NCBI GenBank assembly: GCA_031291075.1
Contig: JARLJS010000042.1
Span: 1 to 46,654 of the forward strand
DNA length: 46,654 bases
Direction: 5' to 3'
Origin: Nevskia sp.
Lineage (GTDB): Bacteria; Pseudomonadota; Gammaproteobacteria; Nevskiales; Nevskiaceae
A program made the position numbers and the translations under genes. Shown in pieces: positions 10,115-14,625 of the stretch. How positions within the stretch are numbered: position 1 is the stretch's first letter; every line of letters begins with the position of its first letter. The notes beneath the pieces were generated by a model that saw only the letters and a list, made by a program, of their open reading frames with translations, searched no databases and was not told the origin of the DNA.

Positions 10115-10227
10115 GGCGGCCGCCACCCGGCAATACGTACTTGCCGCAAGCGGCCTGCGGAAACTACGAATGGCCGCTGCGGCGAGTACTGGCGCAAGCT
10201 GGCGGCAGAAGATCAAGGAGTTGCGCC

Positions 10228-10971
10228 ATGCCGTTCGACACCACACTCTCCGCCTGCGTCGGCACCGACTGCCAGCTCTGCCCGGTCCGGACCTGCATGG
10301 CGCGCAGGGGCTCGGCGGACGCCGCCGCGGCCTGGTCGTCCATCCTGGCGCCGCGCATGGCGGCGATGCCCGGCGCCGCGGCGCTGCACCGGGCCGGCGA
10401 CAAGATGAAGGCGGTGTTCTCGGTACGCGGCGGCTGCATCAAGGCCTACACCATCGATGCCGACGGCAACGAGCGTATCCGCGGCTTCTACCTGCCCGGC
10501 GACCTGGTGGGGCTGGACGGCTTCGGCGGCGGCGTCTGCCTGTCCACCGCCGCCGCGGTGGTGCCGTCCCAGGTCTGCGTGGTGCCGGTGTGCGAGCTGC
10601 GCAAGCTGATGCAGCGCTGGCCCAGCGTATCGTTGAGCCTGATGGAACAGACCAGCCGCGAGCTGGGGGTGGCCCTGGCGATGTCCGGCGACTACAGTGC
10701 CGAACAGCGGCTGGCCGCGTTCCTGTTGCACATGCGCGACCGCCTCGCGGTCGGCGGCGCCATGCGCCTGCCGATGGCCCAGCGCGATGTCGGCAGCTAC
10801 CTGCGCCTCGCCACCGAGACGGTGTGCCGCACTCTCAAGAGCATGGAGCGGCGCGGCTGGCTGTCGCTGTCCGACAAGAACATCCGCATCCTCGACGAAG
10901 CCGGCCTGCACGAGCTGGCTGACGTGGTGGGGATCTTCCACGCGCCGGCAGGGTTGTCGAAAGCGGCTTGA
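10228..10971 (+). CDS. FNR/Anr-family oxygen-responsive transcription regulator
   Basis: This 247-residue CRP/FNR protein has an N-terminal cysteine cluster (Cys10, 15, 18, 23), a cyclic-nucleotide-binding-like barrel (VFSVRGGCIKAYTIDADGNE, then GFYLPGDLVGLDGF) and a C-terminal winged helix (MAQRDVGSYLRLATETVCRT, ~183-202). FNR and Anr use CxxCx5C plus a distant Cys to hold a [4Fe-4S] cluster; here the spacing is CxxCx4C, with Cys104 or Cys117 as the fourth candidate. In the recognition helix the usual E-x-x-S-R is E-T-V-C-R. AAGGAG at 10215-10220, seven bases before the ATG, decides the start. It probably activates the FNR boxes in this window at low oxygen. A nitric-oxide or redox role is possible. 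Confidence 0.88.
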   Translation: MPFDTTLSACVGTDCQLCPVRTCMARRGSADAAAAWSSILAPRMAAMPGAAALHRAGDKMKAVFSVRGGCIKAYTIDADGNERIRGFYLPGDLVGLDGFGGGVCLSTAAAVVPSQVCVVPVCELRKLMQRWPSVSLSLMEQTSRELGVALAMSGDYSAEQRLAAFLLHMRDRLAVGGAMRLPMAQRDVGSYLRLATETVCRTLKSMERRGWLSLSDKNIRILDEAGLHELADVVGIFHAPAGLSKAA

Positions 10972-11075
10972 TTTGTTCTCCCTTGCAGGGAGTGCTGGTT
11001 TTCGAGTCGCTCTCCCTTCGCCCGCTTGCGAGAGAGAGGCAGGGGGCCTTCGCTTCGGGTCACAGACATATTGCT
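10972..11075. other. Short intergenic stretch with weak palindromes
   Basis: After the FNR-like gene there is a CTCCCTTGCAGGGAG palindrome starting near 10979, a possible terminator stem without a T run. A GAGAG-type REP-like repeat follows near 11010-11036. No coding sequence is supported before the structured repeat begins at ~11076. Confidence 0.4.
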
Positions 11076-11465
11076 AACAGTGTGCTGAGCCTTCACTGCA
11101 TGCGCTTGCGCGCGTGTGGTGCTTTCCCGGGATTGAAGGCGTGTGTTTCGCCTGGCGGCGACCTACTTCTTGTCTACAGCGACAAGAAGTAGGCAAGAAA
11201 CGCCGCCCCGGAGGCTGCGCCCTCTCATCGCAAAAGCAAGAAGCGCGATGAGAGGGTCCCCTGCGCTTCTCGCCCGCAGCGGGTTCCGCACACAGGCCAT
11301 CCATGGCCTGCGTGCGGAAGCTTCGGCATCCTGCCTCGCCCGGCGCGAGCACACGCGCCGGCCCATACCGCCGCGTGCTGCGATGCTCGGCGCAGCCAAC
11401 GGGGGAGAACGTCAAAAGCGAACTGCTCAGGTCAGAACCGCTGCGCGGTTCCGACTACTTCGAAA
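11076..11465 (+). repeat. Structured multi-hairpin element, copy A
   Basis: This ~390-base non-coding element is repeated in inverted orientation at 12140-12535. Both copies share long near-identical blocks and the same hairpin series. Hairpins in copy A are: 11162-11174 with 11181-11193 (perfect 13 bp); 11221-11231 with 11245-11255 (11 bp); 11284-11300 with 11303-11319 (long stem, one mismatch, 2-base turn); 11340-11347 with 11354-11361 (8 bp); and GAACCGC/GCGGTTC near 11435-11451. The second and fourth stems differ in sequence from copy B but remain fully paired. Short open frames across it are not credible genes. It could be a mobile miniature element, a structured RNA, or a BIME-like repeat. 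Confidence 0.8.
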
Positions 11466-11578
11466 TGACAGGGCTCCTGGAATCTTGGGGGGGTAGGTCG
11501 GTTTGAATCGCATCGAAACTCTGCGCTCCTGTATTCTGGCGCCTAGACGAGTGTTATCACATCCGAATAGGAGCACCG

Positions 11579-12124
11579 ATGTCTGCCTCGGCAACGTCGC
11601 AATGGTCTCATGAGTTGGAGGCAGCGATAGTCCATGCAGTTGCGGCGCATAACAAGCACGCCAATAGTCCGGATGACGCCGTCCGGTTCCATGATAGGAA
11701 AACACCGTACGTAGTACATCCCATATGGTGCGCGACCAGCCTCCTGTCGGAACCAGCATTGCCCGAGGAGCTGCGCAGGAACGGGGCCATTGCATTGCTC
11801 TGGCACGACACGCTGGAAGACACCCGACTGCCTCTGCCCTCGTGGAGTTCTGAAAAGGTTTCATCACTGGTTGCTGAAATGACGTTTGAGTCCTTTCAGC
11901 AGGAGATCGATCATCTGTGGGAGCGCTCGGAAGAAGCAAAGCTTCTGAAGCTTTACGACAAGGTATCGAATCTTCTTGACGGATCGTGGATGAAGACGCC
12001 GAAATGGAATGCCTACATCGTGCACACTCTGAAGTTGGCGGAACACGTCCAGTCGCGCTGGGGCATTCTCAACATCGTGCGGATCGCCCACACGCTCTGT
12101 ATTCCCAGGCAGGAGACGGCCTAA
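11579..12124 (+). CDS. HD-domain protein, RelA/SpoT hydrolase-like (small alarmone hydrolase-like)
   Basis: This 181-residue protein looks like a free-standing HD hydrolase domain of the RelA/SpoT/MESH1 kind. Seen motifs in order are AHNKHA (24-28), KTPYVVHPIW with His47, LLWHDTLEDT with His76-Asp77 and Glu80-Asp81, and KLYDKVSNL with Asp127, matching the H...HD...ED...D metal and substrate pattern. By family it could hydrolyse (p)ppGpp or a related nucleotide; no synthetase domain is present. AGGAG at 11568-11572, six bases before the ATG, is a good ribosome site. Base composition is much lower in GC than the neighbours (about 53% over four lines counted by hand). The gene sits alone between two inverted structured repeats, which suggests lateral acquisition. 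Confidence 0.72.
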   Translation: MSASATSQWSHELEAAIVHAVAAHNKHANSPDDAVRFHDRKTPYVVHPIWCATSLLSEPALPEELRRNGAIALLWHDTLEDTRLPLPSWSSEKVSSLVAEMTFESFQQEIDHLWERSEEAKLLKLYDKVSNLLDGSWMKTPKWNAYIVHTLKLAEHVQSRWGILNIVRIAHTLCIPRQETA

Positions 12125-12139
12125 GACTGCGGTTCACGG

Positions 12140-12535
12140 CTTCGTAGTCCCGAAGTAGTCGGGACCGCGCAGCGGTTCCGACTTGAGCAGTTCGCTTTTG
12201 ACGTTCCTCCCCGTTGGCTGCGCCGAGCATCGCAGTCCGCGGCGATAGAGGCTCGCGCCTGTTTGGCGCGAGGCGAGGCAGGATGCCGATGCTTCCGCAC
12301 GCAGGCCATGGATGGCCTGTGTGCGGAACCCGCCGCGGGCGAGAAGCGCAGGGAACCGATCAATCGCGCTTCTGCTTTTGCGATTGATCGGCGCAGCCTC
12401 CGGGGCGGCGTTTCTTGCCTACTTCTTGTCGCTGTTGACAAGAAGTAGGTCGCCGCCAGGCGAAATACACGCCTTCAAGCTCGGGAAGGCACCCACACGC
12501 GCGCAAGCGCATGCGGCGAGGCTCCAACAGCTGTT
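12140..12535 (-). repeat. Structured multi-hairpin element, copy B (inverted)
   Basis: This is the inverted partner of the element at 11076-11465. On the plus strand its hairpins are: 12252-12259 with 12265-12272 (CTCGCGCC/GGCGCGAG); 12293-12309 with 12312-12328; 12356-12367 with 12380-12391 (12 bp); and 12418-12430 with 12437-12449 (13 bp, identical stem to copy A but a different loop). The 12-bp and 8-bp stems have base changes on both sides relative to copy A that keep pairing. The inner end lies ~15 bases after the HD gene stop, so its transcript would run into this element. Confidence 0.8.
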
Positions 12536-12642: not shown

Positions 12643-14625
12643 TCAGATCACCCTCGAAAACCGCGGCTCCGCCGCCGCGGCCGCAGCCTTCGGCAGATAG
12701 GCGTCGAACGGCATCGCAATCACCCGCAACAGGTATCTCCCGGTATCGGTCACGGTGAGCCCGCGCTGGTCCGTCTCCACCAACCCGTCCCGCTCGAGTT
12801 GCTCCATCTGACGCAGCTCGGCGGCGAAGTAGCTGCCGAAGTCCAGCTCGTAGCGGTCCTCGATGACCGCATAGTCGAGCCGGCCGCCGCACATCAACGC
12901 GCCGATAACGTCGCGCCGTATGCAGTCGTCCTGCGACAGGCGCACGCCGCGCTCCACCGGCAGCCGGCCCGCGTCCAGGGCGGCCTGATAGGCGCCGACT
13001 GTGCGCGCGTTCTGGCTGTAGACCTCGCCCAGGCGGCCGATGGAGCTCATGCCAAGGCCCACCAGGTCGAGCCCACCGCGGGTCGAGTAGCCCTGGAAGT
13101 TGCGCTGCAGCGTGCCGGCCCGCAGCGCGGTGGCCAGCTCGTCGCCGGGCAGGGCGAAATGGTCCATGCCGATGTAGACGTAGCCGGCATCGAGCAGTCG
13201 CTCGATGGTCAGTTCCAGCAGCCCCAGCTTGGTATCGGCGTCGGGCAGGTCCTTGGCGCGGATCTGCCGCTGCGGCTTGAAGCGCTGCGGCAGGTGCGCG
13301 TAGCTGTAAGCGGAAATGCGGTCCGGGCGCAGCGAAATGACGCGCTCCAGGGTGGTGGCGAAGGAGTCGCGGTTCTGCTTCGGCAGGCCGTAGATCAGGT
13401 CGAACGACAGCGAGTTGAAGCCGGCGCGCCGCGCGGCGTCGACCTGGTCGGCGACCTGCTCGTAGGTCTGCATCCGGTTCACCGCTTCCTGCACCGCCGG
13501 GTCGAAATCCTGGATGCCGAAGCTGGCGCGGTTGAAGCCCAGCGCAGCGAGCTGCGGCAGGGTCGCCGGCTCGATCGTGCGCGGATCCAGTTCGATCGAG
13601 AATTCGCGGCCCGCGCCGTCGCTCAGCGCGAAGCTGCGGCGCAGCGTGTCGAACAGCCGCTGCAGCTGCGCGATCGACAGATAGGTCGGCGTGCCACCGC
13701 CGAAATGAAGCTGCTCCACCACGCGCGTACGCGAGAACAGGCGGCCCTGCAGCTCCGCTTCCAGCTCGAGGCGCTTGAGGTAGTCCTCGGCCATGCTGTT
13801 GCGGCTGGTGATGATCTTGGTGCAGGCGCAATAGAAGCAGGGGCTGATGCAGAACGGGATGTGGACGTACAGCGACAGGGGTGCGTCGGCGCCGTGCGCG
13901 TTGCTGCGCGCGGCAGCTTCCAGGTAGTCGTTCAGGCCGAACTGCGGCGTGAATTGCAGCGCGGTCGGATACGAGGTGTAGCGCGGACCGTTGAGGTCAT
14001 AGCTGCGGATCAGGTCCAGGCTCGGGCGGGCGGCGTTCGAATGATCGGGCACGGCATCCTCCTCAGGTTGTTCGCCGCAGGCCGCGATGGCGGCTTGCAA
14101 GTCCCCCCGCAGCAGCCTTTCCACGGCCGCGGCTCCTTGCGGCGTGCGCAGGCGTCCGTTCATGTCGGTGACGTCGCGGGCGACGCCCAGGATGCCGTCG
14201 ATGCCGGGCCGGCCGAGCAGAGCGCGGTACAGTATCCATACCCGGCGCACGCTGCCGTCGCGCTGCACCAGGCGCAGCTTGCACAGGTGCTCGGAGTCGT
14301 CGCCGGCGACCGTGCCGGCGAGCGCGCGCCCCACGCGTCTGCGGTCGTTGGGATGGACGAAGTCGGTGATCATGCGGCCGGCGAACGACGCGGCGCCATA
14401 GCCCAGCAACTGAGGCTGGGCGTTGAAAATGGTGCGGATGGTGCCGTCGGCATCGGCCAGGGCGGCGGCGCGGCCCAGCGCTTCCTGGGCGCGGCGCATG
14501 GCTTCGGCCTGGTATTTCTGCACGTTGGCGGCCGAAGACTCGGCGGCTTCGCCGGTATCCGGCAGCTGGGGGTGAAGCATGTCCATGGGTATACCCTTGC
14601 GTTCCTTGCGATCCGTACCGTTCAT
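12643..14625 (-). CDS. hemN: PAS domain fused to oxygen-independent coproporphyrinogen III oxidase
   Basis: The frame is open for 660 residues from an ATG at 14625 that overlaps the SafE-like stop as ATGA. Residues ~40-155 form a PAS/PAC domain (ADGTIRTIFNAQPQLLGYG, FVHPNDRRRV, RDGSVRRVWILYRAL, ILGVARDVTDM). From ~192 onward the protein is a full-length HemN: GPRYTSYPTA, the radical-SAM cluster motif CISPCFYC, GGGTPTYL, DLIYGLPKQ, GMDHFA and the conserved C-terminal SRVI. HemN converts coproporphyrinogen III to protoporphyrinogen IX without oxygen. A strong internal ribosome site and GTG at 14052 could give a separate 469-residue HemN. PAS fusion to HemN is unusual in my knowledge; the PAS domain might sense redox or bind haem. 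Confidence 0.9.
   Translation of the reverse strand: MNGTDRKERKGIPMDMLHPQLPDTGEAAESSAANVQKYQAEAMRRAQEALGRAAALADADGTIRTIFNAQPQLLGYGAASFAGRMITDFVHPNDRRRVGRALAGTVAGDDSEHLCKLRLVQRDGSVRRVWILYRALLGRPGIDGILGVARDVTDMNGRLRTPQGAAAVERLLRGDLQAAIAACGEQPEEDAVPDHSNAARPSLDLIRSYDLNGPRYTSYPTALQFTPQFGLNDYLEAAARSNAHGADAPLSLYVHIPFCISPCFYCACTKIITSRNSMAEDYLKRLELEAELQGRLFSRTRVVEQLHFGGGTPTYLSIAQLQRLFDTLRRSFALSDGAGREFSIELDPRTIEPATLPQLAALGFNRASFGIQDFDPAVQEAVNRMQTYEQVADQVDAARRAGFNSLSFDLIYGLPKQNRDSFATTLERVISLRPDRISAYSYAHLPQRFKPQRQIRAKDLPDADTKLGLLELTIERLLDAGYVYIGMDHFALPGDELATALRAGTLQRNFQGYSTRGGLDLVGLGMSSIGRLGEVYSQNARTVGAYQAALDAGRLPVERGVRLSQDDCIRRDVIGALMCGGRLDYAVIEDRYELDFGSYFAAELRQMEQLERDGLVETDQRGLTVTDTGRYLLRVIAMPFDAYLPKAAAAAAEPRFSRVI
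14050..14063 (-). promoter_or_regulatory. Internal ribosome binding site and GTG start for hemN
   Basis: Inside the PAS-HemN frame, AGGAGG (minus strand, 14063-14058) is followed after five bases by an in-frame GTG (14052-14050). Starting here gives MPDHSNAARPSLDLIRSYDL, which aligns with the normal N-terminus of HemN. The message may therefore yield both a fusion and a free enzyme. Confidence 0.6.

Follow-up and report, generated by a model that had tools for sequence, protein, structure and literature searches.

Inverted arms flanking a gene in Nevskia

A real, strongly constrained, widespread and gene-carrying element is present in the window, by which we mean the whole 46,654-nucleotide stretch of Nevskia sp. 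DNA analysed here. It consists of two arms in opposite orientation, arm A on the left (11076-11462, plus strand) and arm B on the right (12151-12524, minus strand), which were delimited by BLAST self-comparison (89% identity) and by their other copies. The sole open reading frame between the arms (11579-12124, plus strand) encodes a protein of 181 amino acids resembling the MESH1/HDDC3 alarmone hydrolases (phmmer 1.2e-4), with a match to TIGR00691 spoT_relA (0.0035) that is far under the cut-off of that model. A search of 84 other genomes of the order at 1e-10 returned no match to this protein. The cargo gene stops 26 nt short of arm B, which is predicted to form its 3' UTR. The pair is flanked by convergent genes, a Crp/Fnr-type regulator gene (10141-10971, plus strand, Pfam) and, on the minus strand with its end at 12643, a hemN-like gene named by eye.

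This confirms the arrangement proposed from the letters alone, that of two near-identical elements in opposite orientation around one gene, and the outer limits then given (11076-12535) agree with ours to within about 10 bases, the outer ends of arms being placed here only by how far paired arms resemble each other. Open frames are also found inside the arms on both strands (in the window, 11074-11496 and 12121-12441) and could be annotated as hypothetical proteins.

Structure and covariation of the arms

Each arm adopts a single, conserved branched fold, in keeping with the earlier description of several hairpins per element. In the orientation of arm A, the outer part is made of the hairpins P0 (11098-11117, plus strand, identified from the sequence), Pa and Pb (11162-11193, plus strand, with its arm B copy at 12418-12449 located by self-comparison), followed by the closing stem P1 (11206-11220 paired with 11390-11404), which delimits the core of arm A (11206-11404, plus strand); the core of arm B was located by model match at 12206-12408 (minus strand). 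Inside P1 are found the hairpin P2 (11221-11255, plus strand), a conserved interrupted helix, and the stem P3, which surrounds P4, the mini-hairpin P4b and P5 (11340-11361, plus strand). On the strand of arm B that is read outward from the centre of the pair, P4 (12293-12328, plus strand; arm A equivalent at 11284-11319, minus strand) has the loop ATGGAT with its GGA at 12310, and P4b (12277-12287, plus strand; arm A equivalent at 11325-11335, minus strand) has the loop GGA at 12281, 29 nt ahead of that of P4. Beyond the core comes a linker, to which the gene-bearing pairs of the window genome add a REP-like hairpin of GTAG type, located at the inner ends of arm B (12155-12182, plus strand) and arm A (11431-11458, minus strand). 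The stems P1 and P3 and the GTAG-type hairpins at both inner ends had escaped the sequence-only reading.

That reading had drawn attention to two stems differing between the copies yet staying paired, and to a 13-bp stem shared by both. The first swap corresponds to P2 (CCTCTCATCGC / GCGATGAGAGG) and the second to P5 (CCGGCGCG / CGCGCCGG), and the replacements (CCTCTCATCGC versus CCGATCAATCGC and CCGGCGCG versus CTCGCGCC) do leave pairing intact in both arms; the 13-bp stem, that of Pb, is the same in both arms, with a loop differing by one base. Folding energies computed for one strand of each arm are far under those of shuffled sequences (z -8.2 and -8.7). The outward folds of arms A and B (-224.0 and -220.1 kcal/mol) are more stable than the inward ones (-207.5 and -215.6 kcal/mol), the arm B comparison being over 374 and 385 nt.

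The view that such paired changes reflect a constraint on the fold is supported well beyond the two window copies. Among 65 distinct arms, independent of the set used to build the model except for the two arms of locus L223, two-sided changes affect 61 of 64 base pairs (834 cells versus 246 in shuffles). In the same arms 91.4% of cells pair, against 64.9% after shuffling, a figure favoured by an alignment fitted to the structure and reached by 0/500 shuffles; pairing is thus far above chance. It drops from 91% to 36-41% when the partner is slid by 1-3 columns. In a MAFFT alignment of 26 arms made without any fitting to structure, two-sided changes are seen in 31/66 pairs.

Copies, pair layout and cargo

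Copies of the arm were recovered both in the genome carrying the window and in its relatives, in agreement with the earlier reading. BLAST finds 24 pieces of arm in the window genome, where the copy number is uncertain because in eight cases an arm is interrupted by the limit of its contig (C193, C271, C272, C194, C53, C106, C176 and C77). Complete inward-facing pairs surround other genes on C56 and C69, and short gene-less pairs are found on C120 and C101. Two further gene-bearing pairs are partial: on C77 the contig begins within the left arm, and on C176 the left arm has an internal deletion and the right arm is truncated where the contig stops. Counting the window genome, BLAST matches occur in 14/61 genomes, and the core covariance model detects the family in 15/398 genomes and 10/213 genera of the phylum (E<=1e-4) and in 46/369 genomes and 39/272 genera of the class Gammaproteobacteria (E<=1e-5, only 6 candidates being scored per genome in this class-wide scan). 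Core-pattern matches carrying names belong to Nevskia MAGs, Stenotrophobium rhamnosiphilum GT1R17 and a MAG labelled Verrucomicrobia. The last has Nevskia-type arms on several contigs (L080, L097, L100, L102 and L104), so that its label is perhaps wrong or its bin mixed. Two arm queries gave no match in plasmids, and one arm pattern no exact match in viral contigs.

Copy number can be high. In one genus, which we take from its sequence features to be Pseudomonas-like, 2 to 51 copies per genome are found in 17/25 genomes, and 8/25 have none. Genes for C4 antisense RNA, known from phages, lie within about 1 kb of some Pseudomonas-like arms (L112/L269, L130 and L270). In the Stenotrophobium-like genome G028, the 10 pairs fetched are units of about 740 nt that are 84-92% alike in the comparisons made, with similarity stopping near the arms. 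Same-side arms of these loci (L060-L069) are about 90% alike and opposite sides about 75-80%; left and right arms are therefore two distinct types, and the pair appears to have been multiplied as one unit.

The inward layout is the rule. We collected 178 arms in 113 loci, among which three Stenotrophomonas-like loci are possibly one ancestral site. Of 62 cases of neighbouring arms at most 3 kb apart, 57 are inward, 4 tandem and 1 outward, and in four single-contig genomes partly overlapping this set, 12/16 are inward and 4/16 tandem. The departures, one outward pair and tandem arms, include L122 (G420), L124 (G118) and L047 (G017). For 54 further arms the fetched DNA showed no partner; many of these loci are truncated, either where a contig ends or at the 1.5 kb fetch limit. 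Spacing within the 57 inward pairs is 12-437 nt in 44 and 761-2321 nt in 13. These 13 wide pairs mostly surround varied small genes, including orphans. Searches identified the MESH1-like gene of the window, a RAYT in C176 (196.7 bits), an AbiU2-HEPN gene in L218 (8e-30) and, in L219, an ion channel (8e-10), and no family was found above cut-off in the remaining scanned cargo. For L188 and L231 the cargo was assessed by eye, and one of the 13, L128, outside the scan, has long overlapping frames and may be no cassette. A PADLOC search for defence genes gave weak hits only, in 1/10 proteins.

The window site can be compared with armless ones. A match to the window's fnr gene at 1e-60 is found in 9/18 genomes of the genus, and in four of the fetched loci (G005, G010, G013 and G014) the hemN-like gene adjoins fnr with about 60-190 nt between them and no arms, the flanks being too diverged to give base-exact ends or target duplications. 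The presence of multiple copies, along with relatives lacking the pair between the same two genes, indicates that the element disperses.

Strand preference

If RNA is what is constrained, GU should be better tolerated than AC on the RNA strand. With strand-matched models built from the same 26 arms, 60 other arms scored higher on the outward strand in 52 cases, lower in 7 and equally in 1 (mean difference +5.0 bits), and GU:AC counts were 79:30 outward versus 53:51 inward. RNAalifold gave 64:25 outward and 20:51 inward for the A4 arms, and 52:10 and 24:16 for the Pseudomonas-like arms; in its control, RNase P from 27 genomes, the own strand gave 100:14 and the opposite strand 50:83. A strand-blind stem finder agrees with the outward strand in the core (AC 41 : GT 5 inward, unique contexts) and shows no strand preference in the outer 130 nt (9:6); this method failed its own RNase P control (10:11), and 7 tRNAs provided too few cases. 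A strand-neutral reading was considered on the basis of near-equal or mixed counts (GT 134 : AC 78, with 71 GT in one column; 82:95 for A3 and 76:58 for A4). These had been obtained with inward-strand models and were discarded because, as the strand-matched models show, the strand of the model itself biases such counts.

The RNA-like strand thus seems to be the one read from the centre outward, that is, the minus strand from 11462 to 11076 in arm A and the plus strand from 12151 to 12524 in arm B. The sequence-only reading had offered either a structured RNA or a single-stranded DNA mobile element. The preference for the outward strand is as an RNA would give, and the DNA element keeps a place among the explanations weighed below: DNA hairpins, too, accept G-T more readily than A-C, for which reason GU tolerance cannot separate RNA from one strand of DNA.

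GGA loops and matches to RNA families

Hairpin loops containing GGA are frequent on the outward strand, at least one being found in 136/159 cores and at least two in 97/159, against 15/159 cores on the inward strand. On the outward strand these loops average 1.6 per core, compared with 0.8 for an unrelated triplet, GCA. Set against the two hairpins with AYGGAY loops of TwoAYGGAY, the window has the P4 loop ATGGAT and, in P4b (GGCAGGATGCC), GGA in a shorter loop. From such loops, the arms are predicted to bind CsrA.

TwoAYGGAY (RF01731), a candidate RNA, and RsmW (RF02809), an RsmA-binding RNA of Pseudomonas aeruginosa, both belong to Rfam clan CL00106. The TwoAYGGAY gathering threshold of 43 bits is passed in 14/17 Pseudomonas-like loci, always on the outward strand, and in 3/10 mixed sources, the other 7/10 having no hit; the window has none, nor have the window genome and its 14 control genomes at E<=1. 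RsmW scores in the window are 34.3 bits for arm B and 27.7 bits for arm A, both on the outward strand and under the gathering threshold of 52 bits. As they fall short of the thresholds of both families, the window arms are best described as a variant rather than a member. Rfam types TwoAYGGAY as Cis-reg, although it has been listed as a probable RNA, not cis-regulatory, from human gut, gamma-Proteobacteria and Clostridiales (PMC2864571), and its hairpins have been noted to match a CsrA-binding motif (PMC4333381). RsmW is described as arising by processing of a small gene's 3' UTR and as binding RsmA in vitro (PMC4950607).

Explanations for the paired arms

We tentatively favour, as a quite possible explanation, that the arms are dispersed, cargo-carrying relatives of TwoAYGGAY/RsmW-type RNAs, arranged so that the central transcript enters an arm. 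Because both arms read outward, the mRNA of the central gene would always meet one of them whichever its direction of transcription, and the inward pairing would be simply explained, since the orientation of the cargo becomes irrelevant. The arm, as a 3' UTR or a processed small RNA, would bind a CsrA/RsmA dimer through GGA sites such as those 29 nt apart in arm B, and once bound could titrate CsrA or tune the cargo transcript; in the window, the transcript of the MESH1-like gene would carry arm B. Spread might be passive or aided in trans by REP/RAYT machinery, the weakest step of this scheme. Against this explanation, sigma-70-like promoter signals are not in excess at 25 pair centres (7.00 and 7.28 versus 7.50 and 7.54 in shuffles). 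Arms with no fetched partner lie downstream of the inner gene in 18/26 Pseudomonas-like loci and in only 14/29 others, a weak and lineage-limited 3'-UTR trend that counts against a transcript running into the arm.

The main alternative, though somewhat unlikely, is a single-stranded DNA mobile element, whose arms would be terminal hairpins that a trans-acting Y1 HUH (RAYT-type) transposase recognises, with the cargo carried between them. The inner-end GTAG-type hairpins point in this direction, being present in 5/5 gene-bearing pairs and 0/2 short pairs of the window genome, as do the RAYT cargo of C176 and an arm adjoining a RAYT in G016, and RAYT genes flanked by long inverted repeats, the TIRtrons, are known (PMC3733652). 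However, arms (E<1e-9) are found near only 3/30 RAYT loci (L139, L144 and L154), only one RAYT is inside a pair, most RAYTs are flanked by short hairpins of their own, and the inner GTAG hairpin is absent from short pairs and can be lacking in gene-bearing pairs of other genera (L203 and L219). A RAYT as owner of the arms is not supported as a general rule; about 22 of the 30 loci have inverted repeats of their own. The RAYTs within the partial pair L144 (G000:C176) and beside the arm L078/L139 (G016:C3) each have their own short GTAG hairpins. Replication-strand counts were 26/37 (p 0.02), 27/43 (p 0.13) and 7/14, and 15/38 in G118, where the origin was not located; by eye, two of the records presumably start at dnaA and that of G118 does not.

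That the arms are decayed or passive repeats, pairs being spread by recombination and hairpins kept perfect by quasi-palindrome correction with no selected function, seems improbable. Two-sided changes are what such correction would give, and variation is indeed nearly all two-sided with few one-sided intermediates, but conservation across genera extends to the unpaired motifs, the GGA loops and the interrupted helix, and the excess of GU over AC on one strand is not expected from copying alone. Bidirectional terminators or insulators, with the pair shielding the central gene and the convergent flanking genes, are very improbable: the window pair does sit between convergent genes and its arms are very stable hairpins, yet direct reading reveals no U-run after the outer hairpins of the window arms, and termination needs no conserved branched core.

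Relationship to known systems and implications

In the literature searched, we recognised no description of such paired arms. TwoAYGGAY shares with the outward strand of the arms two GGA-loop hairpins within an enclosing stem, whereas the arms add the hairpin P5, the stem P1 with P2, and the outer hairpins P0, Pa and Pb; inverted pairs with cargo are a feature of the arms to which nothing similar appears in the cited descriptions of TwoAYGGAY (PMC2864571, PMC4333381). RsmW likewise has GGA loops and an origin in the 3' UTR of a small gene, as proposed for the window cargo, but it matches under threshold here, and the account cited does not present it as a pair or a repeat (PMC4950607).

Like REPs/REPINs, REPtrons and TIRtrons, the arms are dispersed, hairpin-forming, often in inverted pairs and mostly intergenic, with GTAG hairpins at their inner ends. 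REPs are 20-50 nt long, however, against about 330-390 nt for an arm, which also has a branched core, and a RAYT is neither within nor next to most pairs; the form of a REP, a short palindrome bearing GTAG at one of its ends, is seen only in the inner-end module. In contrast to REPtrons and TIRtrons, the window cargo is not a RAYT, and one other pair (C176) has one. Integron cassettes resemble the pairs in holding mostly single, varied and often orphan genes next to structured sites, but have one attC per gene rather than two inverted arms, and the pairs are scattered rather than arrayed.

A bolder proposal, which we consider distinctly unlikely, is that the pairs are an unrecognised class of mobile gene cassettes across the Gammaproteobacteria whose inverted ends are CsrA-binding RNAs, so that cargo inserted in either orientation would gain a CsrA-responsive 3' UTR and copy number would titrate the host's CsrA pool.

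Should the arms act as DNA instead, they would still be a large family of structured repeats, one that lists of open reading frames fill with spurious small proteins. They also provide natural material for further work, with dozens of arm variants, a genome in which gene-bearing and empty pairs coexist, and an AbiU2-HEPN cargo. If the favoured explanation is true, a candidate RNA motif would become one end of a dispersed gene-carrying element present in 46 of the 369 gammaproteobacterial genomes sampled, and RNA sponges of a global regulator would be linked to mobile DNA.
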